Source: Bradyrhizobium diazoefficiens (lineage in GTDB: Bacteria; Pseudomonadota; Alphaproteobacteria; Rhizobiales; Xanthobacteraceae). From it: a DNA stretch of 64,000 nt. The position numbers were made by a program, and so were the translations under genes. The notes under the pieces are model-generated. The model had not been told where the DNA came from and did not search any database. It was given only the letters and a program-made list of their open reading frames with translations. Below, piece by piece: positions 15,318-29,805 of the stretch. Position 1 is the first letter of the stretch. Each line of letters opens with the position of its first letter. The stretch is from the NCBI RefSeq assembly GCF_018129965.1, contig NZ_JAFCKW010000031.1, positions 1 through 64,000 on the forward strand, given 5' to 3'.

Positions 15318-16277
15318 ATGACTATCGCTCCGTCGCTACAGCTGCCGGCCTTTGCCGACATCGAAAGCTTCCGCGCCTTCCGCTCCGATCCGCCGCAATG
15401 GCTCCCCATCGCGCTCGATATCGCCCGCAGCCACGGTCTCGATACCGGCGCGCCGCATGTGTTTGCGACCGGCACCAATCTCGTCGTCGGGCTCGGCGAC
15501 CAGCTGATCCTGAAGATCTTCCCGCCGCTGCTCCGCGCGCAATTCGTCTCCGAGCGCGGGTCGCTGACGCAGCTGGCCGGACATCTTCAATTGCCGATCC
15601 CCGAGATCGTCGCGGAGGGCATGCGTGACGGCTGGCCCTACCTCGTCATCACCCGCCTCGCCGGCACACTTGGCTCGGACGTCTGGCCACACCTGGCGGA
15701 ACACCAGAAAGAGCGCGTGTTGCGCCAGATCGGCGAGACCATCGCCGCCGTGCAAGCCGCGCCGCTCGGACCGCTCGCACAGATCGAACCGCGCTGGGAC
15801 GACTTCATGCGCCAACAGATGCAGGGCTGCCGTGCGCGGCACACCCGTCTCGGCCTCGCGCCGAAATTCCTCGCCGGCCTCGACGATCTCCTGAACGACG
15901 CCGCCACCCTGATCCCGATGGATGCCCCGCCGGTGATCCTGATCGGCGAATACATTCCGGAGAACTTTCTGCTCGCCTGTCGCGGCGACGCGTGGTCGCT
16001 CGCCGGCCTGTTCGATTTCGGCGACGTGCTGGCGGGATGGCGCGACTACGATCTGCTCGGCCCCAGCGCCTTCATGGCGGCGGGCCACCCGGGCCGCGTG
16101 CGCAGCCTGCTCGCAGGTTTTGGTTACGCGAAGCCGGATTACGCCCTCAAACGCCGGCTGATGGCCTTGATGCTTCTGCATCGCGCCAGCGACCTCAACA
16201 GCCACATCTGCATCGAAGGCTGGCAGGTGAGGGCGGACGATATGGTCGAACTGCAGGAGCTGATCTGGGCGGGATGA
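15318..16277 (+). CDS. Phosphotransferase-family (APH/choline-kinase fold) protein
   Basis: A 319-aa protein with the aminoglycoside/homoserine-kinase-like fold. The nucleotide-binding Lys lies in QLILKIFPP near residue 73 and the second metal-binding site is LFDFGDVLAGWRDYD. The usual HGDxxxxN catalytic loop reads IGEYIPEN, so the Asp base is a Glu and the His is absent. A Gly-Glu-Tyr version of this loop occurs in a subset of bacterial phosphotransferases, so it may still be active. Substrate is unknown and antibiotic resistance should not be assumed. It stands alone between a repeat and the sigma-54 promoter of the next operon. Confidence 0.7.
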   Translation: MTIAPSLQLPAFADIESFRAFRSDPPQWLPIALDIARSHGLDTGAPHVFATGTNLVVGLGDQLILKIFPPLLRAQFVSERGSLTQLAGHLQLPIPEIVAEGMRDGWPYLVITRLAGTLGSDVWPHLAEHQKERVLRQIGETIAAVQAAPLGPLAQIEPRWDDFMRQQMQGCRARHTRLGLAPKFLAGLDDLLNDAATLIPMDAPPVILIGEYIPENFLLACRGDAWSLAGLFDFGDVLAGWRDYDLLGPSAFMAAGHPGRVRSLLAGFGYAKPDYALKRRLMALMLLHRASDLNSHICIEGWQVRADDMVELQELIWAG

Positions 16278-16455
16278 TCGGGCAGTTCCCGTCCTGCTCA
16301 ATTCGAGAGCGCGCTTTTTTATAGCCTAATTTGAGAGCAAAATCGCATCTTTGTATGCAATTGACGCGGTTGCCCAAGCTTTGGTCAAGAGGGAATCGAG
16401 CGAATATATTTAATTATATCATGCACTTAGGAGTATAATAACGACTCATTAAGCC

Positions 16456-16472
16456 TTGGCACGAACCTTGCG
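16456..16472 (+). promoter_or_regulatory. Sigma-54 (RpoN) promoter candidate
   Basis: TTGGCACGAACCTTGCG matches the -24/-12 consensus, with GG and GC exactly ten bases apart. It lies about 45 bases before the ATG of the peptide-type binding protein. This predicts activator-dependent transcription of the transporter and ureide operon. The rest of the 16278-16516 spacer is AT-richer and holds no gene. Confidence 0.75.
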
Positions 16473-16516: not shown

Positions 16517-18139
16517 ATGAAACGCCGCGATTTCCTCAAGTCCGTGTCCGGATTGGCCGCCGGCGCGGCGCTTCCGGCCGCCCCGTCCATGATCTCGACA
16601 GCCTATGCCGATGCGCGCTCGGAGACCCTGCTGATCGTCTCGGAAGGCGGCCCGAACAATCTCGACATCCAGGGCGTCGGCACCAACGTGCCCGGCTATG
16701 AGGTGTCGTGGAATTGCTACGACCGGCTGATCAGCCACGAGATGAAGAGCGGTCCCGGCGGCGTGCCCTATTACGACCGCGACAAGTTCAAGCCCGAGCT
16801 CGCCGAGGACTTCAAGATCGACGACATGTCGGTCACCTTCAAGCTGCGCAAGAACGCCAAATTCCATGACGGCACGCCCGTCACCGCCAAGGACGTGAAG
16901 TGGTCGCTCGACCGCGCCGTCAGTGTCGGCGGCTTCCCGACATTCCAGATGAGCGCGGGCTCGCTGACCAAGCCGGAGCAATTCGTCGTGATCGACGACT
17001 ACACCGTGCGCGTCGACTTCCTGAAGAAGGACAGGCTGACGGTGCCGGATCTCGCTGTCATCGTGCCCTGCATCGTCAACTCCGAACTGGTGAAGAAGAA
17101 CGCCAGCGAGAAGGATCCCTGGGGTCTCGAATTCACCAAGCAGCAGACCGCAGGCTCCGGCGCCTACAAGGTGACCAAATGGACCGCCGGCACCGAAGTG
17201 ATCATGGAGCGCAACGACGACTGGGCCTGCGGTCCGTTGCCGAAGATCAAGCGCGTGATCTGGCGCATGGTGCCGCAGGCGGGCAACCGCCGTGCGCTGC
17301 TGGAGCGCGGCGATGCCGATATCTCCTATGAGCTGCCCAACAAGGACTTCCAGGAGATGAAGGCGAACGGCAAGCTCAACGTCGTGTCGCTGCCGTTCTC
17401 CAACGGCATCCAGTATATCGGCATGAACGTCACCAAGCCGCCGTTCGACAATCCCAAGGTTCGCCAGGCGGTCGCCTATGCGCTGCCCTATCAGAAGATC
17501 GTCGACGCCGTGATGTTCGGCCTCGCCAACCCGATGTTCGGCGCGGCACAGGACAAGCCGACCGAAGTCGCATGGCCGCAGCCGCACAAATACAACACCG
17601 ACATGGACAAGGCGAAGGCGCTGCTCGCCGAGGCCGGCTATCCCAACGGCTTCGAGACCACGCTCTCGTTCGACCTGAATTTCGCCGGAGTCAACGAGCC
17701 GCTCTGCGTGCTGGTGCAGGAGAGCCTCGGCCAGATCGGCATCAAGACCACCATCAACAAGGTGCCCGGCGCCAACTGGCGCACCGAGTTGAACAAGAAG
17801 GAAATGCCGCTCTACACCAACGTGTTCTCGGGCTGGCTCGATTACCCCGAATACTTCTTCTACTGGTGCTACCACGGCAACAATTCCGTCTTCAACACCA
17901 TGAGCTACAAGTCGCCGGAGATGGACAGTCTGATCGACGGTGCGCGCAATGCGGCCGCGACCGGCGACACCGCGACCTACGACAAGGACGTCAAGGGCTT
18001 CGTCGATCTCGCCTTCACCGACATCCCGCGCATCCCGCTGTACCAGCCCTTCGTCAACATCGCGATGCAGAAGAACATCAGCGGATACCAATACTGGTTC
18101 CACCGCCGCCTGGATTATCGCGCGCTGGCGAAGGGGTGA
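16517..18139 (+). CDS. Peptide/nickel-type ABC transporter substrate-binding protein (SBP_bac_5)
   Basis: A 540-aa periplasmic binding protein of the DppA/OppA family. The N-terminus MKRRDFLKSVSGLAAGAAL is a twin-arginine signal, so it is likely exported folded. The mature part shows the family patterns FKLRKNAKFHDGTPVTAKDVKWSL and NPKVRQAVAYALPYQKIVD. It is the first gene downstream of a sigma-54 promoter, followed by two permeases and a fused double ATPase, then AtzG/AtzE/AtzH-like genes. That order suggests the ligand is a nitrogen-rich amide or ureide, or a peptide. The ligand is inferred from context only. Confidence 0.9.
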   Translation: MKRRDFLKSVSGLAAGAALPAAPSMISTAYADARSETLLIVSEGGPNNLDIQGVGTNVPGYEVSWNCYDRLISHEMKSGPGGVPYYDRDKFKPELAEDFKIDDMSVTFKLRKNAKFHDGTPVTAKDVKWSLDRAVSVGGFPTFQMSAGSLTKPEQFVVIDDYTVRVDFLKKDRLTVPDLAVIVPCIVNSELVKKNASEKDPWGLEFTKQQTAGSGAYKVTKWTAGTEVIMERNDDWACGPLPKIKRVIWRMVPQAGNRRALLERGDADISYELPNKDFQEMKANGKLNVVSLPFSNGIQYIGMNVTKPPFDNPKVRQAVAYALPYQKIVDAVMFGLANPMFGAAQDKPTEVAWPQPHKYNTDMDKAKALLAEAGYPNGFETTLSFDLNFAGVNEPLCVLVQESLGQIGIKTTINKVPGANWRTELNKKEMPLYTNVFSGWLDYPEYFFYWCYHGNNSVFNTMSYKSPEMDSLIDGARNAAATGDTATYDKDVKGFVDLAFTDIPRIPLYQPFVNIAMQKNISGYQYWFHRRLDYRALAKG

Positions 18140-18325: not shown

Positions 18326-18384
18326 ACAGCACGGTGCGCGGCGCGAGTCAGCCCTCCTTTGCCAAGCAGAAGGAGAATGCTCCC

Positions 18385-19398
18385 ATGCTGACCATGATCG
18401 GCAAGCGCCTGATGTTCGCGATTCCCTCGCTGATTGGCGTCGTCATCGTCACCTTCCTGCTGACACGCGCATTGCCCGGCGATCCCGCCGCGTATTTCGC
18501 GGGGCCCGCGGCGACCAAGGAAGCCGTCGAGCAGATCCGCAAGAAGCTCGGCCTCGACCGGCCGCTGATCGAGCAGTTCTTCCGCTACACCAATGATCTC
18601 GCGCATGGCGATTTCGGCAACTCGCTCACCACCGGGCAGCCGGTCGCGGCCGAAATCCGCAATCGCCTGCCGGCTTCCGCCGAGCTGACGCTGCTCGGGC
18701 TCGTCGTCTCGATCGTGATCGCCATTCCGCTCGGCGTGCTGGCGGCGACGCGGCCGGGCTCGTGGGTCGACCATCTCTGCCGGGTCACGACGACGGCCGG
18801 CGTCTCGCTGCCGGTGTTCTTCACCGGCCTCGTGCTGGTCTACGTCTTCTATTTCCGGCTCGGCTGGTCGCCCGCGCCGCTCGGTCGGCTCGATGTGTTC
18901 TACAGCGCGCCGCCGACGATTACCGGCTTCTATCTGATCGACACATTGATCGCGCGTGATTTCGAGGCGTTCCGGTCGGCGCTGAGTCAGCTCATCCTGC
19001 CCGCAACCACGCTCGCGATCTTTTCGCTGGCGCCGATCGCCCGCATGACCCGCGCCTCGATGCTGGCGGTGCTGTCGTCCGAGTTCGTCCGCACGGCGCG
19101 CGCCAGCGGCCTGTCGCCGGCCACGGTCATCGTCACCTATGCGTTCCGCAACGCGATGCTCCCCGTGATCACCACGCTCAGCATGGTGTTCTCGTTCCTG
19201 TTAGGGGCCAACGTGCTGGTCGAGAAAGTGTTCGCCTGGCCCGGCATCGGCTCCTACGCGGTGGAAGCGCTGATCTCGTCGGACTTCGCGCCGGTGCAGG
19301 GTTTCGTGCTGACCATGGCGGTCATGTACGTGCTGCTCAATCTGGTGATCGACATTCTCTATGGCGTGATCGATCCACGCGTGCGGCTGGAGGGCTAA
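18385..19398 (+). CDS. Peptide-type ABC transporter permease (DppB family)
   Basis: A 337-aa inner-membrane permease with six predicted helices. The EAA-like loop reads NAMLPVITTLSMVFSFLLGA and the C-terminus YVLLNLVIDILYGVIDPRVR is the standard DppB ending. The ATG of MLTMIGKR is chosen because AAGGAG lies nine bases before it; an upstream in-frame ATG has no ribosome-binding site and runs into a repeat. It pairs with the DppC-like permease that starts three bases after its stop. Substrate is unknown. Confidence 0.92.
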   Translation: MLTMIGKRLMFAIPSLIGVVIVTFLLTRALPGDPAAYFAGPAATKEAVEQIRKKLGLDRPLIEQFFRYTNDLAHGDFGNSLTTGQPVAAEIRNRLPASAELTLLGLVVSIVIAIPLGVLAATRPGSWVDHLCRVTTTAGVSLPVFFTGLVLVYVFYFRLGWSPAPLGRLDVFYSAPPTITGFYLIDTLIARDFEAFRSALSQLILPATTLAIFSLAPIARMTRASMLAVLSSEFVRTARASGLSPATVIVTYAFRNAMLPVITTLSMVFSFLLGANVLVEKVFAWPGIGSYAVEALISSDFAPVQGFVLTMAVMYVLLNLVIDILYGVIDPRVRLEG

Positions 19399-19401
19399 TT
19401 C

Positions 19402-20301
19402 ATGAGCTCCGTTGCGCCTGCTGTCGAATCCGTCGGTCCCGCGCGCACATCGGGACTGGTCGCGATCCTCGAACAGACCCGCTATGTTCTCGGCGAGAAC
19501 AAGGTCACCGGGTTCGCGTTCGCGCTGCTGGTCGTGATCCTGATCGCCGCGATCTTCGGCCCCTATGTGGTGCCGTACGATCCGCTGGCGTCCGACACGG
19601 CTGCCGCGCTGAAGCCGCCGTCGATGGCGCACTGGTTCGGCACCGATCAATTGGGCCGCGACATCTTCAGCCGCGTCATCGTGGCAACAAGGCTCGATAC
19701 CTTCATCGCGGTCGCCTCCGTGGTGCTGGTGTTCCTGATGGGCGGCCTCGCCGGCATCGCCGCCGGCTATTTCGGCGGCTGGACCGATCGCATCGTCGGC
19801 CGCATCGCCGACACCATCATGGCGTTCCCGCTGTTCGTGCTGGCGATGGGCATCGTCGCCGCGCTCGGCAACACCGTGCAGAACATCATTTTCGCCACGG
19901 CCATCGTCAACTTCCCGCTCTACGCCCGCGTCGCGCGCGCCGAAGCCAATGTCCGCCGCAACGCCGGCTTCGTGCAGGCCGCGCGTCTGTCGGGCAACGG
20001 CGAATTCCGCATCCTGCTGGTGCACATACTGCCGAACATCATGCCGATCATGATCGTGCAGATGTCGCTGACCATGGGCTACGCCATCCTCAACGCCGCC
20101 GGCCTCTCCTTCATCGGCCTCGGCGTCCGCCCGCCGACCGCAGAATGGGGCATCATGGTCGCCGAAGGCGCGGGCTTCATGGTCTCGGGCGAATGGTGGA
20201 TCGCCCTGTTCCCGGGTCTTGCTCTGATGATCGCCGTGTTCTGCTTCAACCTCCTCGGCGACGGCCTCCGCGACATCGTCGACCCCCAGCGGAGGACGTG
20301 A
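19402..20301 (+). CDS. Peptide-type ABC transporter permease (DppC family)
   Basis: A 299-aa inner-membrane permease. The N-terminal cytoplasmic tail is followed by a first helix (FAFALLVVILIAAIFGPYVV), the DppC motif HWFGTDQLGRDIFSRV, the EAA loop region ILLVHILPNIMPIMIVQMS and the C-terminal GLRDIVDPQRRT. It forms the heterodimeric channel with the upstream DppB-like protein. A repeat element separates it from the ATPase gene, so the ATPase could be expressed at a different level. Confidence 0.92.
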   Translation: MSSVAPAVESVGPARTSGLVAILEQTRYVLGENKVTGFAFALLVVILIAAIFGPYVVPYDPLASDTAAALKPPSMAHWFGTDQLGRDIFSRVIVATRLDTFIAVASVVLVFLMGGLAGIAAGYFGGWTDRIVGRIADTIMAFPLFVLAMGIVAALGNTVQNIIFATAIVNFPLYARVARAEANVRRNAGFVQAARLSGNGEFRILLVHILPNIMPIMIVQMSLTMGYAILNAAGLSFIGLGVRPPTAEWGIMVAEGAGFMVSGEWWIALFPGLALMIAVFCFNLLGDGLRDIVDPQRRT

Positions 20302-20363
20302 TGATTGTTGAATGCTGGGCGAGAAGCGCAATGGTCAGATGTGAGGAACGCACTCCTCCCTCA

Positions 20364-20470
20364 TTCCCTCCCCCCTTGTGGGGGAGGGGCAGCGAGGGGG
20401 GTAGCCACGAACTCCAACCTCTCCCGGGGCCACCCCCCTCCCCAACCCTCCCCCACAAGGGGGGAGGGAG
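20364..20470. repeat. Inverted-repeat element inside the transporter operon (copy 2)
   Basis: Near copy of the element at 18220-18325, sharing GTAGCCACGAACTCC and the flanking CCCTCCCCC arms. It lies between the DppC-like permease and the fused ATPase gene. Confidence 0.85.
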
Positions 20471-20587
20471 CGAGAGGCCGTTGCGCTCCTCACGCAAAAG
20501 GCTTCGTCAAAAATTCCCCAATGATTCCGGTCCCCGTTCTACTGTGCATGGGGTTGTTTTCGACCTTTTGAGTGACGGGAGGCCCGC

Positions 20588-22372
20588 ATGACCGCCCAGC
20601 CCCTGCTCGACGTCCAGGATCTCACGGTCGAATTCAACACGCGCCGCGGCATCGTGAAGGCCGTCCAGCACGTCAACATCTCCGTCGCCAAGGGCGAGAC
20701 GCTCGCTATCGTCGGCGAGTCCGGGTCCGGCAAGTCAGTGACGTCCTATGCGGTGATGCGCATCCTCGACCGGGCGGGGCGGATCGCCGAGGGCTCGGTG
20801 ATGTTCTCGGGCATCGACGTCAAGGCTGCGACCGAAGACCAGATGCGCGACCTGCGCGGCCGCGAAGTCTCGATGATCTTCCAGAACCCGCGTGCCGCGC
20901 TCAACCCGATCCGGAAGGTCGGCGACCAGATCGAGGACGTGCTGCGCACCCATGTGCAGCAGGCGCCGGTCGCCGATCACGGCGAGAAGGCGATCGAGGC
21001 GCTGGAGCAGGTCAAGATCGCCCGCCCGCGCGAGCGCTATCACGCCTATCCGTTCGAGCTCTCGGGCGGCATGTGCCAGCGCGTCGTCATCGCGCTCGCG
21101 CTCGCCTGCAATCCGCAACTGCTGATCGCAGACGAGCCGACCACCGGCCTCGATGTCACCACGCAGAAGGCGGTGATGGACCTGATCGTCGAGCTCACAA
21201 AGCGCAAGGCGATGTCGACCATCCTGATCACCCACGATCTCGGCCTCGCCGCCGCCTATTGCGACCGCGTCGTGGTGATGGAGAAGGGCCGCGTGGTCGA
21301 GACCGCCAGGGCCGCCGACATCTTCGCCAACCCGCAGCACCCCTACACCAAGAAGCTGATGCGCGCGACGCCGCGGCTCGGCGTGTCGTTGCGGGATCTC
21401 TTGCCGGAGGAGGAGGGGGCGACCAAATCCCCATCTGTCATGGCCGGGCTTGACCCCGCCATCCATCACGCTTCGCAAGACTCGTCCCAATCGATGGCCC
21501 CCCGGGTCAAGCCCGGGGGTGACGAGACTGCAAAACCCCTCCTGCTCATCGAAAAGCTCGTCAAGGAATACCCCCGCCAGGGCGCGACCGCGACGCTCGG
21601 TAAACTGTTCGGGCGCAAGCCGCCGGTGGAGCCGGACGTGTTCCGCGCCGTCGACGGCATCAGCTTCTCCATCGGCCATGGCGAGAGCGTCGGCCTCGTC
21701 GGCGAGTCCGGCTGCGGCAAATCGACCACCTCGATGATGGTGATGCGGCTGCTGGACCAGACCTCCGGCCTGATCCAGTTCGACGGCGAGGACATCGGCG
21801 CCATCCAACCTGCATCCTTTGCCCGGCTGCCGCAGCGCAGCCGCATCCAGATGGTGTTCCAGGACCCGACCGACAGCCTCAATCCGCGCTTCACCGCCGC
21901 GCGTGCGATCGCCGATCCCATCATGCAGCTCGGCGACGTCAGGGGACGCGACGCGCTCCGCACCCGCTGCGAGGAGCTGGCCACCATGGTCGGACTGCCG
22001 CACAATCTGCTGGATCGCTTCCCGCACCAATTGTCCGGCGGCCAGAAGGCCCGCGTCGGCATCGCGCGCGCCATCGCCCTGCATCCGAAGCTCGTCATCC
22101 TGGACGAGCCGACCGCAGCGCTGGATGTCTCGGTCCAGGCCGTGGTGCTGAACCTGCTCCAGGACCTCAAGGCCCGGCTAGGTATGAGTTATCTGTTCGT
22201 CTCGCATGATTTGAACGTAGTGCGCTTGTTGTGCGATCGTGTCATTGTCATGCGGTCGGGTCGAATCGTCGAGGAAGGCACTTCCGAGAGGGTCTTGAGC
22301 GATCCGCAGGACGACTACACCAAGGAGCTGCTGACGGCGATTCCGCATCCGCCGTTGCCGGCTCACGGATAG
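20588..22372 (+). CDS. Fused double ABC ATPase (DppD-DppF) of the peptide-type transporter
   Basis: A 594-aa protein with two complete ABC domains. The first has Walker A GESGSGKS near residue 42, signature LSGGMCQR and Walker B LLIADEPTTGLD. The second has Walker A GESGCGKS near residue 375, signature LSGGQKAR and Walker B LVILDEPTAALD. The DppD-type C-terminal tail of the first domain is followed by a linker (about residues 277-320). A palindromic repeat lies in the gene here, so residues about 284-313 (including VMAGLDPAIHH and RVKPGGDET) are translated repeat. The frame stays open through it. The fusion supplies both ATPases for the upstream permeases. Confidence 0.93.
   Translation: MTAQPLLDVQDLTVEFNTRRGIVKAVQHVNISVAKGETLAIVGESGSGKSVTSYAVMRILDRAGRIAEGSVMFSGIDVKAATEDQMRDLRGREVSMIFQNPRAALNPIRKVGDQIEDVLRTHVQQAPVADHGEKAIEALEQVKIARPRERYHAYPFELSGGMCQRVVIALALACNPQLLIADEPTTGLDVTTQKAVMDLIVELTKRKAMSTILITHDLGLAAAYCDRVVVMEKGRVVETARAADIFANPQHPYTKKLMRATPRLGVSLRDLLPEEEGATKSPSVMAGLDPAIHHASQDSSQSMAPRVKPGGDETAKPLLLIEKLVKEYPRQGATATLGKLFGRKPPVEPDVFRAVDGISFSIGHGESVGLVGESGCGKSTTSMMVMRLLDQTSGLIQFDGEDIGAIQPASFARLPQRSRIQMVFQDPTDSLNPRFTAARAIADPIMQLGDVRGRDALRTRCEELATMVGLPHNLLDRFPHQLSGGQKARVGIARAIALHPKLVILDEPTAALDVSVQAVVLNLLQDLKARLGMSYLFVSHDLNVVRLLCDRVIVMRSGRIVEEGTSERVLSDPQDDYTKELLTAIPHPPLPAHG
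21437..21525. repeat. Palindromic repeat inside a coding sequence
   Basis: Arms GTCATGGCCGGGCTTGACCC and CGGGTCAAGCCCGGGGGTGA match the intergenic element at 97-180. Here the element is about 89 bases and keeps the reading frame, forming the linker between the two ABC domains. Confidence 0.9.
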
Positions 22373-22596: not shown

Positions 22597-23991
22597 ATGA
22601 CAGCCAAGCCAGATTTGAGCGCTGCCGACATCGCCAAGGCGGTGGCCGGCGGCAAATTGTCCGCGCTCGATGCGACCGAAGCCGCGCTCGCCCGCATCAC
22701 GCAGCACGACGGCGTCCTCAACGCCTTCACCGACGTCACCGCCGATCGCGCCCGTGCGAAAGCGCGTGCGATCGATGCCGACATCGCCGCCGGCAAGGAG
22801 GTCGGCCCGCTCGCCGGCGTGCCCTTCGCTGTGAAGAACCTGTTCGACGTCGCCGGCCTTCCCACTCGCGCCGGCTCGAAGATCAATCGCGATCTTCCGC
22901 CGGCGAGGCGCGATGCCACGCTGGTCGAGCGGATGGAAGCCGCCGGCGCCGTTCTCGTCGGCGCGCTCAACATGGGCGAATATGCCTACGACTTCACCGG
23001 CGAGAACATTCACGATGGTCCCTCGCGCAATCCGCACGACACCACGCGGATGAGCGGCGGCTCGTCCGGCGGTTCGGGCAGCGCGGTGGGGGGCGCATTG
23101 GTGCCGATTGCGCTGGGCTCCGACACCAATGGGTCGATCCGCGTGCCGTCGTCGTTCTGCGGCATCTTCGGCCTCAAGCCGACCTATGGCCGGCTGTCGC
23201 GCGCGCGCTCCTTTCCGTTCGTCGCGAGTTTCGATCATCTCGGCCCGTTCGCGCGTTCCGTCACCGACCTCGCGCTCGCTTACGACGCGATGCAGGGTCC
23301 CGATGCCGATGATGCAGCCTGCACCACGCGCGGGCTGGAGCCGACCACGCCTTTGATCGCCAATCCGGTGTCGGACCTGCGCATCGCTCTCGCCGGCGGT
23401 TATTTCCAGAAGAACGTGTTCCCCGAAGCCGTCGAAGCCGTCAGCCGCGTCGCCAAGGCCCTCGGCGCGACGAGCGTGGTGGAGATTCCCGAAGCCGCGC
23501 GCGCCCGTGCGGCGGCTTACGTCATCTCGACCACGGAAGGCGCCTCGCTGCATCTCGATCGCCTGCGCAAGCGCCCGAACGATTTCGATCCCGCCGTGCG
23601 CGACCGGCTGATCGCCGGCGCCATGGTGCCGGCGCCGCTGGTCGATCGCGCGCAGAAATTCCGCCGCTGGTATCGCGCGCAGCTTGCCGAGCTGTTCAAA
23701 TCGGTCGACGTGCTGATCGCGCCCGCGACGCCCTGCACCGCGCCGAAGCTCGGCCAGGTCAATTTCAATCTCGACGGCGTCGAGCTGCCGGTGCGTGCCA
23801 ATATCGGCATTCACACCCAGCCCATCTCGTTCATCGGCCTGCCGGTGGTTGCGGTTCCCGTTCCGCTCGAGCCGCTGCCGATCGGCGTGCAGATCATCGC
23901 CGCGCCCTGGCGCGAGGACATCGCGCTGCGCGTCGCCTATGCATTGGAGACGATGGGCATCGTCGCCGCGCCCGCGCCAAGGGGACTTTGA
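22597..23991 (+). CDS. AtzE-family amidohydrolase (HpxY-like)
   Basis: A 464-aa amidase-signature enzyme. The Ser-cisSer-Lys triad is complete: K80 in GVPFAVKNLFD, S156 in MSGGSSGGSG and S180 in GSDTNGSIRVP. AtzE hydrolyses 1-carboxybiuret in cyanuric acid degradation, and the Klebsiella homologue HpxY belongs to the oxalurate pathway. With AtzG-like upstream and AtzH/HpxZ-like downstream, the gene order is that of both systems. No cyanuric acid hydrolase (AtzD) is in the window, so the natural substrate may be a different ureide or amide. The reaction type is sure; the substrate is not. Confidence 0.87.
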   Translation: MTAKPDLSAADIAKAVAGGKLSALDATEAALARITQHDGVLNAFTDVTADRARAKARAIDADIAAGKEVGPLAGVPFAVKNLFDVAGLPTRAGSKINRDLPPARRDATLVERMEAAGAVLVGALNMGEYAYDFTGENIHDGPSRNPHDTTRMSGGSSGGSGSAVGGALVPIALGSDTNGSIRVPSSFCGIFGLKPTYGRLSRARSFPFVASFDHLGPFARSVTDLALAYDAMQGPDADDAACTTRGLEPTTPLIANPVSDLRIALAGGYFQKNVFPEAVEAVSRVAKALGATSVVEIPEAARARAAAYVISTTEGASLHLDRLRKRPNDFDPAVRDRLIAGAMVPAPLVDRAQKFRRWYRAQLAELFKSVDVLIAPATPCTAPKLGQVNFNLDGVELPVRANIGIHTQPISFIGLPVVAVPVPLEPLPIGVQIIAAPWREDIALRVAYALETMGIVAAPAPRGL

Positions 23992-24003: not shown

Positions 24004-24396
24004 ATGGAGATCGATCTCCCCGACGTGATCGCGGAAGTCAAAGCCGCGTTCGATCGCTATGAGCAGGCGCTCGTCACCAACGACGTCGCCGTGCTCGGCG
24101 AACTGTTCCGCAACGATCCGCGCACGCTGCGCTACGGCATCGGCGAGAACCTCTATGGCTACGAGGCGATCTCCGGCTTCCGTGCCGGCCGCTCGCCGGT
24201 GGGTCTGAACCGCCGCACCGCGAAAACCGTCATATCGAGCTATGGCCGCGACACCGCCGTGGCCTCCACTTTGTTCTATCGCGACACGGCGCCCGGCAAG
24301 GTCGGCCGTCAGATGCAGACCTGGATTCGCTTCCCGGAGGGCTGGCGCGTCGTCGCCGCCCATGTCAGCATCATCGACGAGTCGAAAGAGACCTGA
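24004..24396 (+). CDS. AtzH/HpxZ-like (DUF3225) protein
   Basis: A 130-aa protein of the SnoaL/NTF2-like fold group, [20 protein letters not shown] to the end, with the conserved [18 protein letters not shown] segment. HpxZ was named for oxalurate catabolism in Klebsiella, and AtzH, the equivalent in the atz cluster, has been reported as an amidohydrolase acting after AtzE on 1,3-dicarboxyurea to give allophanate. If so, its product would feed the allophanate hydrolase encoded convergently nearby. The gene follows the AtzE-like gene by 12 bases. Confidence 0.82.
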
Positions 24397-24400
24397 CCGT

Positions 24401-25123
24401 ATGACGCTTGACGATCTCCCGCAGGGAACACTGCCGGCCGAGCCGGTGGTGCCCCGCGTCGACCGTGCGCTGCCGTCGGCGCAGAAGGTCACGCGGGCCG
24501 AGGAACTGCGTCTTCAACTCGCCGACGAGATCGTGCGTGGCGCCCTGGCGCCCGGCTCGCCGCTGGACGAGACCGACATCGCGCGCCGCTTCAGCGTGTC
24601 GCGAACGCCGGTGCGCGAGGCCCTGCGCCAGCTGGTGGCGAGCGGTCTGGTCGAGGCGCGGCCGCATCGCGGCGCGGTGGTGGCGCAGCCCTCGTTCGAA
24701 CGGCTGACGAGCATGTTCGAGGCGATGGCGGAACTCGAGGCGATGTGCGCCGGCTTCGCCGCCGAGCGCATGACGGCCTCCGAACGCCACGGCCTCGAGG
24801 CCATCCACGAGGAGCTGCGGGTCCTGAGCTACGCCGGCAATCCCGATCGCTTCCACGAGGTCAACGAGCGCTTCCACAACGCGATCTATGCCGGATCGCA
24901 GAATGGCTACATCGCGGAGATCACGCTGGCGACACGTGTACGCGTGCAGCCGTTCCGCCGCGCCCAGTTCCGCAACCTTGGCCGTCTCGCGAAGTCGCAG
25001 GCCGAGCACGACCGCGTCGTCGTCGCCATCATGCGCGGCGACAAGCAGGGCGCCGCCGCCGCCATGCGCGCCCATATCGAGCTGGTGCGCGGGGAGTACG
25101 AGATCTACGCGGTGTCGGTGTAG
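24401..25123 (+). CDS. GntR-family (FCD) transcriptional regulator
   Basis: A 240-aa regulator. The winged helix (about residues 30-95) contains DETDIARRFSVSRTPVREALRQL, and the FCD ligand domain (about 105-225) carries RFHEVNERFHNAIY and EHDRVV, likely metal or ligand contacts. It starts four bases after the stop of the HpxZ-like gene, so it is the last gene of the operon and probably controls it in response to a pathway metabolite. The ATG at 24401 is used; the frame continues upstream without a better site. No clear palindromic operator was found near the sigma-54 promoter. Confidence 0.9.
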   Translation: MTLDDLPQGTLPAEPVVPRVDRALPSAQKVTRAEELRLQLADEIVRGALAPGSPLDETDIARRFSVSRTPVREALRQLVASGLVEARPHRGAVVAQPSFERLTSMFEAMAELEAMCAGFAAERMTASERHGLEAIHEELRVLSYAGNPDRFHEVNERFHNAIYAGSQNGYIAEITLATRVRVQPFRRAQFRNLGRLAKSQAEHDRVVVAIMRGDKQGAAAAMRAHIELVRGEYEIYAVSV

Positions 25124-27143: not shown

Positions 27144-27161
27144 AAGCAAGCGATGTGCCAT
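27144..27161 (-). promoter_or_regulatory. Sigma-54 (RpoN) promoter candidate for the allophanate hydrolase gene
   Basis: On the minus strand ATGGCACATCGCTTGCTT matches TGGCAC-N5-TTGCT, with GG and GC ten bases apart. It precedes the allophanate hydrolase ATG by about 37 bases and mirrors the promoter of the transporter operon. Confidence 0.75.
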
Positions 27162-27258
27162 TGTGTACAGAATCCGGGCACGATGACCGTTGCGGATATT
27201 ATCGCGAGATCAGTGGTTTGGGGCATTTTCTGATGACTGGGCTGGGTGGCATCCCAGC

Positions 27259-27292
27259 GCCCCGTTACGGGCATCTGCACAAAACGTGGGCA
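27259..27292. promoter_or_regulatory. Tandem palindromes, possible NtrC-type enhancer sites
   Basis: CCCGTTACGGG (27261-27271) and TGCACAAAACGTGGGCA (27276-27292) are adjacent dyads resembling TGCACC-N5-GGTGCA. They sit 100-150 bases upstream of the -24 element at 27144-27161, the usual NtrC distance. The match to consensus is partial. The rest of 27108-27299 holds no gene. Confidence 0.35.
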
Positions 27293-27299
27293 GGGCAGG

Positions 27300-27806
27300 T
27301 CAGGTGAAGCCGGCGAGGATCTCCAGCAGCCGCTCCCGGTTCTCCTTGCCGATCTTCGCCTCCACATGCCGCTCGTGCTCGGCGGCGAGCGTCTTGAACT
27401 TCGCCAGCGCCGTCTCGCCCGGCGCGGTGAGATGCAGCGCGTGGGAGCGCCGGTCCGTCTTCGACTTGATCCGCCTGACGAGCTTGCGCTGCTCGAGGCT
27501 GTCGAGCAGATGCACCAGCCGGGCGCGCTCGATGCCGAGGCGTTTTGCGACCGCCATCTGCGAGAGCCCGGGATTGGCGCCGATCACCGTCAGCACCGAA
27601 TATTGCGTTGGCCGGATATCGACCGCGCCCAGCGTCTTGATGAAGTCCTGGAAGATCCAGATCTGGAAACGACGCACCGCGTAACCGGCGTGCCCGACCA
27701 GCGCATCGAGGCCGATCTCGTCCGGATCGTGTGGCCGCGCCGCGCCAGTGTCGGCGCGCTTGCGCGGGGACGGGTGGCGCTCGGCTCGGGTTGCACTGGT
27801 TGTCAC
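27300..27806 (-). CDS. MarR-family regulator, divergent from the feruloyl-CoA-synthase-like gene
   Basis: A 168-aa MarR regulator. The winged helix includes PTQYSVLTVIGANPGLSQM, VAKRLGIERARLVHLLDSLEQ and a wing KSKTDRRSHALHLT. Start is GTG at 27806, with AGGAG seven bases upstream; longer frames run into the divergent promoter. It faces the aryl-CoA ligase gene across 148 bases that contain a perfect palindrome, so it is the likely local repressor, released by an aryl-CoA as described for FerC/HcaR/CouR-type regulators. That ligand is inferred. Confidence 0.88.
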   Translation of the reverse strand: MTTSATRAERHPSPRKRADTGAARPHDPDEIGLDALVGHAGYAVRRFQIWIFQDFIKTLGAVDIRPTQYSVLTVIGANPGLSQMAVAKRLGIERARLVHLLDSLEQRKLVRRIKSKTDRRSHALHLTAPGETALAKFKTLAAEHERHVEAKIGKENRERLLEILAGFT

Positions 27807-27856
27807 ATCATATCTCCTGCCACGCCACACTAGCGCGCCGCCCCGCGGGGCGAAAG

Positions 27857-27877
27857 ATTGTTGTTGACGACAACAAT
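27857..27877. promoter_or_regulatory. MarR operator candidate
   Basis: ATTGTTGT and ACAACAAT form perfect 8-bp arms around TGACG, a 21-bp dyad between the divergent marR and aryl-CoA ligase genes. Its symmetry and place fit a MarR dimer site. Confidence 0.65.
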
Positions 27878-27954
27878 TGCGTTGCCCGACATTGTGGCCA
27901 AAGCAGCCCGGACGAGGTTGCGGCCGATCCCCGATACGGCCGAGGAGGAAACAG

Positions 27955-29805
27955 ATGACGACCGCCACATGCGGCGAGGCTGCGAGCCTGTTCGCAACGC
28001 CCAGGACCATCGCCGAGCATCGCGCCGACGGCAGCATTCTTTTGCGTTCGCCCGAACCGTTGCGCGACGGCGCGCGCTGCACGGGCGACTGGCTGGAGCA
28101 ATGGGCGCGGCAGACGCCTGACAGGGTCTTCCTCGCCGAGCGCGACAGCGCCGATACGCCCTGGGCCACCATGACCTACGCCGGCGCCCTGCGGCGGGTC
28201 CGCGCGGCAGCATCCTGGATTCTCGCGAACGAGCTCAGCGCCGAGCGCCCCGTCGTCATCCTCTCCGACAACAGCATCGACCATGCGTTGCTCGCGCTCG
28301 CCGCCCAGCATGTCGGCGTTCCCTCGGCCGCGATCTCGCCGGCCTATTCGCTGATGTCGAAAGATTTCGACAAGCTCAGGAGCATGATCACGCTGCTTCA
28401 GCCGGGCGCGATCTATGTCTCCGCAACAAAGCCGTTTGCGTCGGCGCTGGCCGCGATCAAGCCGCTTCACGGTGCGCAGATCATCAGCGGCAGAGCCGGC
28501 GAGGCCGATGCGCTCGCCTTTCGCGACATTGCGGCAACGGCTGAAACGGATCATGTCGCAAAAGCCTTCGCCGAAGTGACGCCCGATACGATCGCCAAAT
28601 TCCTGTTTACGTCAGGCTCGACCGGCACGCCCAAGGCGGTCATCAACACCCAGCGCATGCTGACCTCGAGCCAGCAGGCCAAGGCGCAGACCTGGACCTT
28701 CCTCGAACGGGCCGGCGACGATCTCGTCATCCTCGACTGGCTGCCCTGGAGCCACACCTTCGGCGCCAATCACAATTTCAATCTCGTGCTGCGCAATGGC
28801 GGCTCGCTCTATATCGACGGCGGCAAGCCCGCGCCCGGCCTGTTCGCGACGTCGCTCGCCAATCTGAAAAGCGTGATGCCGACGGTCTATTTCAACGTGC
28901 CGCGCGGTTTCGACATGCTGATCGCGGCGCTGCGCAGCGACGAGGAGCTGCGCCGCCGTTTCTTCAGCGAGGTGAAATTCGCCTTCTATGCCGGCGCTGC
29001 GCTGCCGCAAAATCTCTGGGATGCGCTCGAACAGCTCTCGGTCGACATCGTCGGCCGCCCGTTGCCAATGGTCTCGGCCTGGGGCTCGACCGAGACCTCG
29101 CCGCTGGCAACCGATTGCCATTTCCTCGCCGAACGTTCGGGCAATATCGGCGTGCCGATTCCCGGCACCGAGCTCAAGCTCGTCACCTCCGGCGACAAGC
29201 TGGAGGTGCGCGTGCGCGGCCCCAACGTCACGCCCGGCTATTGGAAGGCGCCGGAGTTGACGAGGCAGGCGTTCGACGACGAGGGCTTCTATCTCATCGG
29301 CGATGCCGTGAAGCTCGCGAACCCAGGCCAGCCCGAGCGCGGCCTGTTCTTCGACGGCCGGGTCGCCGAAGACTTCAAGCTCAATTCCGGCACCTGGGTC
29401 AGCGTCGGCACGCTGCGCGTCGCCGGCATCGCCGCGCTGGCGCCGCTTGCGCAGGACATCGTCGTCGCCGGTCATGGCGGCGACGAGGTGCGCTTTCTGG
29501 TGTTCCCGAACATTGCCGCCTGCTGCGCCCATGCCGGTTTGCCCGAGACGGCCGATGTCAACGACGTGCTTTCGCATGCCAGGGTCAGGACCGCGATCGT
29601 GCAAGGCCTCGCCAGACTGAAGCAGCAGGGCGCCAATTCCTCCGGCCATGCGACGCGCGCGCTGCTGCTCGTCGAGCCGCCATCCGTCGACGGCGGCGAG
29701 ATTACCGACAAGGGCTACGTCAACCAGCGCGCGGTGCTGACACGGCGGGCGGATGCGGTGGCGCGACTGAACGATGATGCGCCGGGCGAGTGGGTCGGGT
29801 TGTAG
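27955..29805 (+). CDS. Feruloyl-CoA synthase-like acyl-CoA ligase
   Basis: A 616-aa adenylate-forming ligase. The P-loop is [15 protein letters not shown], the adenine-binding motif is [11 protein letters not shown], and the hinge region lies near [13 protein letters not shown]. Long length and the [16 protein letters not shown] segment match feruloyl-CoA synthases, which activate ferulate, p-coumarate or caffeate to CoA thioesters in the cytoplasm. Start ATG follows GAGGAGGAAACAG. It has no adjacent enoyl-CoA hydratase/aldolase; the next genes in the same direction are a P450 and a binding protein. The exact phenylpropenoid cannot be told. Confidence 0.82.

Follow-up and report, generated by a model that had tools for sequence, protein, structure and literature searches.

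The gene atzF encodes allophanate hydrolase, which is the last enzyme of the triuret/biuret/carboxybiuret pathway, and the locus raises the question of which signals the DNA in front of this gene responds to. Urea fertiliser contains triuret and biuret as impurities, and s-triazine herbicides are a further source of carboxybiuret, biuret and allophanate (PMC7948467, PMC7700744). The accessible text of PMC7948467 describes a route from triuret over carboxybiuret and biuret to allophanate, which takes in the enzymes predicted here.

We analysed a window, by which we mean the whole stretch of 64,000 nucleotides, and compared it with 40 relatives besides its own genome; 25 genomes, its own included, belong to the genus. 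The features found are collected in the Table, in which the transporter genes are placed in one operon with their neighbours on the basis of gene order and strand. Upstream of atzF, at 27300-29805, lie a marR-type regulator gene and a divergent AMP-binding (acyl-CoA ligase type) gene, which presumably form a separate unit. In one relative (G011, L003), contig C16 carries two copies of atzF (644152-645954 and 814245-816047) with equal scores on opposite strands, and the SBP5 gene is doubled too, which reflects either an inverted duplication or an assembly effect.

Table. Features of the two promoter regions and their genes in the window
Feature	Position	Strand	Evidence
NtrC-like box AGCCTAATTTGAGAGCA	16323..16339		rank 3 of 63,984
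Proposed GntR-type operator TTGTATGCAA, between two NtrC-like boxes	16351..16360		TTG[TC]ATGCA in 23/23
NtrC-like box TGCCCAAGCTTTGGTCA	16371..16387		rank 2 of 63,984
IHF-like site TATCATGCACTTA	16417..16429		19/23 orthologous promoters with at most one mismatch, versus 12% of shuffled copies
Sigma-54 promoter of the transporter-atzGEH-gntR run, TGGCACGAACCTTGC	16457..16471	+	exact; in 23/23 aligned orthologous promoters
SBP_bac_5 solute-binding protein of ABC transporter	16517..18139	+	Pfam PF00496
Two permeases (18334-19398, 19402-20301) and fused ATPase (20588-22372), oligopeptide/nickel type	18334..22372	+	NCBIfam
atzG-like small subunit, 60 aa	22407..22589	+	Pfam PF13318 AtzG-like, E 3.2e-18
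atzE-like amidase, 1-carboxybiuret hydrolase family	22597..23991	+	TIGR02715, 766 bits (cut-off 426); best PDB match 6c62
atzH/HpxZ-like protein	24004..24396	+	Pfam PF11533 AtzH-like; NCBIfam HpxZ
GntR-family regulator with FCD domain, proposed binder of the TTGYAYRCAA site	24401..25123	+	Pfam GntR and FCD
atzF, allophanate hydrolase, 604 aa	25293..27107	-	TIGR02713, 816.6 bits (cut-off 511); Pfam Amidase and AH_C
Sigma-54 (-24/-12) promoter of atzF, TGGCACATCGCTTGC	27146..27160	-	exact consensus; exact in 24/25 genus genomes
Proposed GntR-type operator CTGTACACAA, directly next to the -24 box; many relatives have TTGTACACAA	27161..27170	-	TGTACACAATGGCAC conserved
IHF-like site GATCAGTGGTTTG	27208..27220		one mismatch to consensus
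Second dyad of the initial annotation, CCCGTTACGGG	27261..27271		not supported as a binding site
NtrC-like enhancer box TGCACAAAACGTGGGCA	27276..27292		rank 1 of 63,984, glnK2-trained matrix

Sigma-54 sites and NtrC-like boxes before atzF and the transporter run

The exact pattern TGGCACN5TTGC occurs twice in the window, before atzF and at 16457-16471, against 0.14 occurrences expected, and two exact matches were reached in none of 100 shuffles of the window. Allowing up to two mismatches makes the pattern uninformative (54 matches found versus 70 expected in the window). Over the own genome the exact pattern gave 25 matches versus 16 in the reversed control, so the pattern alone does not mark promoters genome-wide. 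The site before atzF has its GG and GC ten bases apart and lies upstream of the gene start, with about 27 nt between the inferred transcript start and the start codon, and it is found without mismatch in all genus genomes but one. This single genome without a sigma-54 site directly before atzF (G015, locus L021) was left out of the alignment. In the 24 aligned rows, the core TGTACACAATGGCACATCGCTTGCTTC around the site is near-constant while the flanks are divergent. The exact minus-strand consensus, its number in the window and its retention among relatives bear out the sigma-54 promoter that the initial annotation had placed here.

The same constancy against diverging flanks speaks against a chance or decayed promoter that goes unused, with atzF being read from the marR gene upstream. 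Such a reading is hardly credible. In the window the marR gene is indeed located upstream in the same direction (ORF 27300-28172), but no marR hit was found (E 1e-8, locus stretch searched) in 5 of 25 loci, and L012, L015, L022 and L024 among them keep the promoter. Furthermore, rpoN mutants of Bradyrhizobium sp. DOA9 show strongly reduced expression of atzF and lower expression of atzE, dppB, dppD and dppF (PMC13207237). In the main text of that paper, atzF is named once, in the transcriptome section, and it is absent from its Table 1 of sigma-54 sites (PMC13207237).

For the enhancer, a matrix was built from two dyads in the upstream DNA of glnK2-amtB2 of 25 genomes; atzF was never included. 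The glnK2-amtB2 genes are a standard NtrC target, and one dyad in their upstream DNA fits TGC-N11-GCA in 25/25 genomes. Among the 63,984 positions of the window, the matrix ranked 27276 first, 16371 second and 16323 third, the latter two both lying before the other sigma-54 promoter. When the columns of the matrix were permuted, the top hit fell within the two promoter regions for 22 of 2000 matrices, and two of the top three hits fell there for none of the 2000. In all 24 aligned atzF promoters, the best hit of the matrix was the dyad at the 27276-27292 place (scores 9.9 to 23.9), and the centre of the best 17-bp TGCCTA-N5-TAGGCA match lay 138-151 bp upstream of the inferred start. Positions 2-3 and 15-17 of this 17-bp dyad are invariant in the 24 promoters. 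At the glnB locus, the two best places of the matrix end 86 and 106 bp upstream of the sigma-54 site with low scores (7.0 and 5.4), and no good match was found upstream of glnK1 (best 2.3). We also observed that, downstream of the glnK2 promoter, the leader GGCTGTGCCCGCGTAGTGA hardly varies among 25 genomes, a degree of conservation beyond what a leader would be expected to need.

Fixed patterns were tried and rejected as markers of the box. The 27276 dyad has three mismatches to the E. coli NtrC consensus, TGCACCN5GGTGCA; at up to three mismatches this consensus is matched at 54 places in the window versus 39.4 expected, so that 27276 is not singled out. TGCCTAN5TAGGCA with up to three mismatches gave 17 places versus 10.3 expected in the window. 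A strict box, TGCCYAN5TRGGCA at a set distance from an exact sigma-54 site, was found in 3 of 98 genus genomes and was replaced by the matrix. TGC-N11-GCA combined with a sigma-54 site gave 2 strand hits in the own genome, the second at C51, versus 1 in the control. These few strict and looser matches indicate that the NtrC box is a loose motif.

The initial annotation had described two dyads at enhancer distance before atzF and read them as tandem NtrC-like sites. Both strings are present, and the one at 27276-27292 is NtrC-like in 24/24 promoters, but CCCGTTACGGG is not more than chance. The window contains 114 perfect 5-1-5 palindromes, of which it is one. Among the 24 orthologous promoters, only the window's own has it in perfect form, and the four scored 17-mers across it all fall below 0 with the NtrC matrix. 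The tandem arrangement is not supported, because just one of the two dyads is NtrC-like.

The motif that 27276-27292 has in common with glnK2-amtB2 supports its reading as an NtrC box, as judged by comparison among genomes. Alternatively, the 17-bp dyad might belong to another enhancer-binding protein, for example NtrX or a DctD-like regulator. We hold this to be quite improbable. The own genome encodes seven clear sigma-54 activators, NtrC and NtrX among them, and the three mismatches to the E. coli consensus could be taken in the same sense. However, the same motif stands at glnK2-amtB2 in 25/25 genomes, and NtrC control of atzF in Rhizobiales has been predicted independently (PMC5343134). 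A dedicated activator beside atzF was also considered and rejected: of 11 sigma-54-activator domain hits in the own genome, none lies on the atzF contig. All in all, the DNA before atzF is very probably a real nitrogen-starvation promoter in a Bradyrhizobium-type soil bacterium.

The promoter at 16457 was compared in 23 of 25 genus genomes, leaving out G009 (no orthologue) and L122 of G016 (cut protein match). Two high-scoring NtrC-like boxes precede it, one of them general in the genus: the 16323 place scored above 5 in 22 of the 23 aligned SBP5 promoters, the 16371 place in only 5, the own included. With matrix ranks two and three before this promoter and its sigma-54 site in 23/23 aligned promoters, the comparison supports the nitrogen regulon that had been proposed to join it to atzF. 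Just upstream of this promoter lies an APH-family phosphotransferase-like gene (15318-16277), which is far under the cut-offs for resistance genes (31.4 versus 640 and 19.3 versus 205 bits).

A TTGYAYRCAA-type element at four promoters

The initial annotation had mentioned neither the IHF-like site, nor the TGTACACAA element that abuts the -24 box of atzF, nor the promoters of like layout before trtA and the BMP-biuH operon. In the own genome, a sigma-54 site at C8:7787 is abutted by TTGTACACAA (trtA promoter), and one at C52:278461 has TTGCATACAA starting 122 bp upstream (BMP-biuH operon). The C8 gene encodes an isochorismatase-fold hydrolase. It does not reach the biuret hydrolase cut-off of NCBIfam (261 versus 370 bits), and its best PDB match is 6xix, 'Cysteine hydrolase', which we take to be the triuret hydrolase TrtA of Herbaspirillum. 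The C52 operon encodes a BMP-type transporter and a protein above the biuret hydrolase cut-off (424.1 bits; PDB 6azo/6xjm). Behind trtA, on the minus strand (L161:4389-6038 in C8), lies a gene for a presumed membrane protein of 550 aa that matches no Pfam or NCBIfam family at the thresholds used. From its sequence and place, this protein is a candidate triuret permease.

The element is present before atzF in 24/24 aligned promoters, where TGTACACAATGGCAC is exact in 23 and a variant stands in the 24th, as well as in 23/23 SBP5, 16/16 BMP and 18/24 trtA promoters. For trtA, 24 of 25 rows were aligned, without G006 (no close orthologue). The sigma-54 site was found in 23 of these, all except L187 (G016), and TGTACACAATGGCA in 18. 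For BMP, rows were taken from the 16 genus genomes in which a close match was complete, whereas a broken match in G013 and weak matches were dropped; sigma-54 site and TGCATACAA occur in all 16. At trtA, the element and an NtrC-like box (at about -132) are both present in 18 of the 24 promoters (L175-L198) and both absent from 6, of which 5 keep a sigma-54-like string. In those six genomes, trtA may have been rewired. The best matrix hits in the BMP promoters score 6.7 to 16.7 at varying places, and in the own BMP promoter the 10-mer overlaps a weaker NtrC-like dyad (score 8.5).

Two placements are seen. The element directly adjoins the -24 box at atzF and trtA, whereas it is located within the enhancer at the two transporter operons. 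In the SBP5 promoters TTG[TC]ATGCA starts 95-107 bp upstream of the -24 box (23/23; own TTGTATGCAA at 106 bp), and in the BMP promoters the 10-mer starts about 122-133 bp upstream (16/16). At atzF a weaker NtrC-like match, TGCCCGGATTCTGTACA (27164-27180, minus strand; score 10.1, sixth in the window), overlaps the proposed operator. It is mostly common to the relatives L002-L014 and, by its sequence, could be a low-affinity 'governor' site.

IHF-like sites were scored as matches to the IHF consensus, WATCARNNNNTTR, with at most one mismatch, and base-shuffled copies served as control. Such sites were found in 18/24 atzF promoters (versus 6% of shuffled copies), 19/23 SBP5 promoters (versus 12%), 16/23 trtA promoters (versus 3%) and 13/16 BMP promoters (versus 17%). 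Among the glnK2 promoters there were 0/25 matches. The elements described here, their spacing, their conservation and the genes that accompany them are observations. Taken by their layout, the trtA and BMP-biuH promoters, which carry the same kinds of element as those of atzF and at 16457, would form a regulon of four promoters with them.

When contigs of public genomes were scanned for the composite of element and sigma-54 site, TGYAYRCAATGGCAC-N5-TTGC, at least 119 stretches matched, of which 80 were listed and classified. Among the 80 matches listed, 43 stand before atzF, 32 before trtA and 5 before neither; of the latter, 2 end at the locus edge and 3 are in the unrelated taxa Pseudacidovorax, Prevotellaceae and Desulfovibrio. 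In G015, trtA, the permease gene (550 aa) and atzF follow each other in the same direction behind the promoter TGTACACAATGGCACACTGCTTGC, and there is no separate atzF promoter (L157, G015:C1:4797500-4813500; composite promoter kept). Since atzF stands here behind trtA and the composite promoter, this exception supports the pathway link.

Could the element be a part of the sigma-54 site? According to this explanation, atzF has a plain NtrC/sigma-54 promoter and TGTACACAA is an extended, lineage-conserved -24 context that helps sigma-54 to bind. The reading of the initial annotation required no second regulator, and the glnK2 promoter is likewise near-invariant around its -24/-12 region without such a 10-mer. 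However, the related 10-mer (TTGTATGCAA or its complement) recurs at the distances given above in all SBP5 and BMP promoters and also in two other families. Far from the -24 box, it cannot be sigma-54 context there, and we regard the explanation as unlikely.

The gntR gene and its company

Operators of GntR/FCD regulators are typically short near-dyads of the GT-N2-AC type. What was found, a conserved short near-dyad common to the pathway operons, would fit promoters of this type. Judged by sequence and gene company, the FCD-type GntR regulator encoded in the window most likely uses the TTGYAYRCAA-type element as its operator.

Of the 25 genus loci, 24 have a homologue of gntR next to atzF, and in the remaining one (G023) it was found in a longer stretch. 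G009 has no orthologue of the solute-binding gene, yet gntR and the element before atzF are kept. In this genome (L156, G009:C1:6914000-6932000), atzE, atzH, gntR and the promoter of atzF have been retained, and no homologues of the peptide-type transporter genes were found beside atzE. In other families, a single cluster holds the genes of the pathway. In G034, biuH-trtA-atzE-atzH-gntR-atzF are all read in the same direction and the BMP gene lies upstream, in the adjoining stretch; in G036, BMP, biuH, trtA, atzH and gntR share one orientation and atzF faces them. Upstream of the BMP sigma-54 site, TTGTATGCAA or its complement is found at about 118-127 bp in G034 and at about 167-176 bp in G036. 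Furthermore, G036 carries TTGCATGCAA between atzF and an exact sigma-54 site about 160 bp further up, and not against the -24 box. In G039 (BMP-biuH-trtA-atzE-atzH, with a sigma-54 site), the cluster stretches examined contain neither a gntR hit nor the 10-mer. Within the cluster stretches of these three other families, gntR and element are thus both present in G034 and G036 and both missing from G039. Co-occurrence in so few families is suggestive, not proof, of a link between them.

It is also conceivable, if doubtful, that the TTGYAYRCAA-type sites are bound by a protein other than the GntR of the cluster, or that GntR acts as an activator there. The own genome has the 10-mer also at places that have no visible link to the pathway. 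Enrichment of the class TTGTRYRCAA in the own genome is slight (34 strand hits versus 23 in the reversed control), and CTGTACACAA, the variant that precedes atzF in the window, falls outside this class. Narrower 10-mers at C12 (twice), C15, C34 and C51 have neither an exact sigma-54 site in the stretches examined nor a visible pathway link. Against this, gntR is found together with genes of the pathway both in the genus and in two further families, and the element accompanies it.

A proposed regulatory scheme and its relation to known systems

We consider it probable that atzF has an NtrC/sigma-54 promoter with an IHF and a GntR layer that responds to nitrogen starvation together with a pathway metabolite. 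In this scheme, sigma-54 RNA polymerase would bind the -24/-12 element of atzF. Upon nitrogen starvation, phosphorylated NtrC would bind the dyad about 150 bp upstream, and IHF would bend the DNA between dyad and promoter so that NtrC could drive open-complex formation. At atzF and trtA, GntR bound to the element next to the -24 box would keep the sigma-54 polymerase off the promoter. In the enhancers of the two transporter operons it would instead compete with NtrC, its site being placed between the two NtrC-like boxes (16323-16387) in the SBP5 promoter and over the weaker dyad in the BMP promoter. If the element is a GntR operator, transcription would need both nitrogen starvation and a pathway signal. 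We infer the identity of the binding proteins and of the inducer, as well as the sign of the GntR effect.

On the wider scale, we lean slightly towards the view that in Bradyrhizobium an FCD-type GntR repressor joins four scattered NtrC/sigma-54 operons (trtA; biuH with the BMP transporter; AtzGEH with the peptide-type transporter; atzF). It would block the polymerase at the enzyme promoters and NtrC at the uptake operons, and a promoter grammar would replace the gene clustering that has been lost.

In Pseudomonas sp. ADP, the atzDGEHF genes form one operon under nitrogen control by the LysR activator AtzR and NtrC. The enzyme families and the nitrogen control are the same as here, but in the present genome a separate sigma-54 promoter precedes atzF. 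As a working model, hutU of Pseudomonas with its pathway-specific repressor HutC, which belongs to the GntR family, comes closest. Like the promoter proposed here, that of hutU is a sigma-54 promoter activated by NtrC with dyads upstream, and the footprint of HutC (TGTA-N2-TACA) overlaps the sigma-54 site, according to the accessible parts of the reports (PMC12977541, PMC8871633). In contrast to hutU, the present system would have an FCD-type regulator with a TTGYAYRCAA operator, another pathway, four scattered promoters and two operator placements, and repression is proposed from sequence.

The NtrC regulon in the accessible text of PMC5343134 does not mention trtA, biuH, atzGEH, a GntR layer or promoter anatomy. 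For DOA9, Table 1 of the RpoN paper lists TGGCACGAACCTTGC, the string of the 16457 promoter, for a peptide/nickel SBP, and it lists TGGCACGGCGCTTGC (isochorismatase) and TGGCACGAAGCTTGC (sugar SBP), strings that we saw at the trtA and BMP promoters of relatives (PMC13207237). The DOA9 trtA promoter (L300) was among our scan matches with the string of that table. Since TGGCACGGCGCTTGC and TGGCACGAAGCTTGC are listed for other genes as well, the match for trtA rests on L300, and those for SBP5 and BMP on string and description (PMC13207237). The accessible text on this RpoN regulon leaves the enhancer-binding proteins open and does not describe a GntR operator (PMC13207237). A gntR near biuH is named in a figure legend of a paper on nitrifiers (PMC12625717), and PMC7948467 cites a thesis on biuret/triuret regulation. 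In the open-access literature, as far as its accessible text goes, we found no description of a GntR operator or a four-promoter regulon at these genes. Already known, then, are the predicted NtrC control (PMC5343134) and the lower expression of atzF in rpoN mutants (PMC13207237), and the GntR layer and the four-promoter regulon are apparently new.

The atzF promoter is an instance of a known promoter type; what was not expected is the GntR layer that we propose for four scattered operons. For Bradyrhizobium, the genus of the soybean symbiont, the regulon so defined names two ABC transporters and the presumed permease of 550 aa as candidates for uptake. It also names the GntR regulator as a candidate sensor and as a starting point for a search for the ligand. 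In addition, the system allows a clean comparison of two operator placements on one class of NtrC/sigma-54 promoter.
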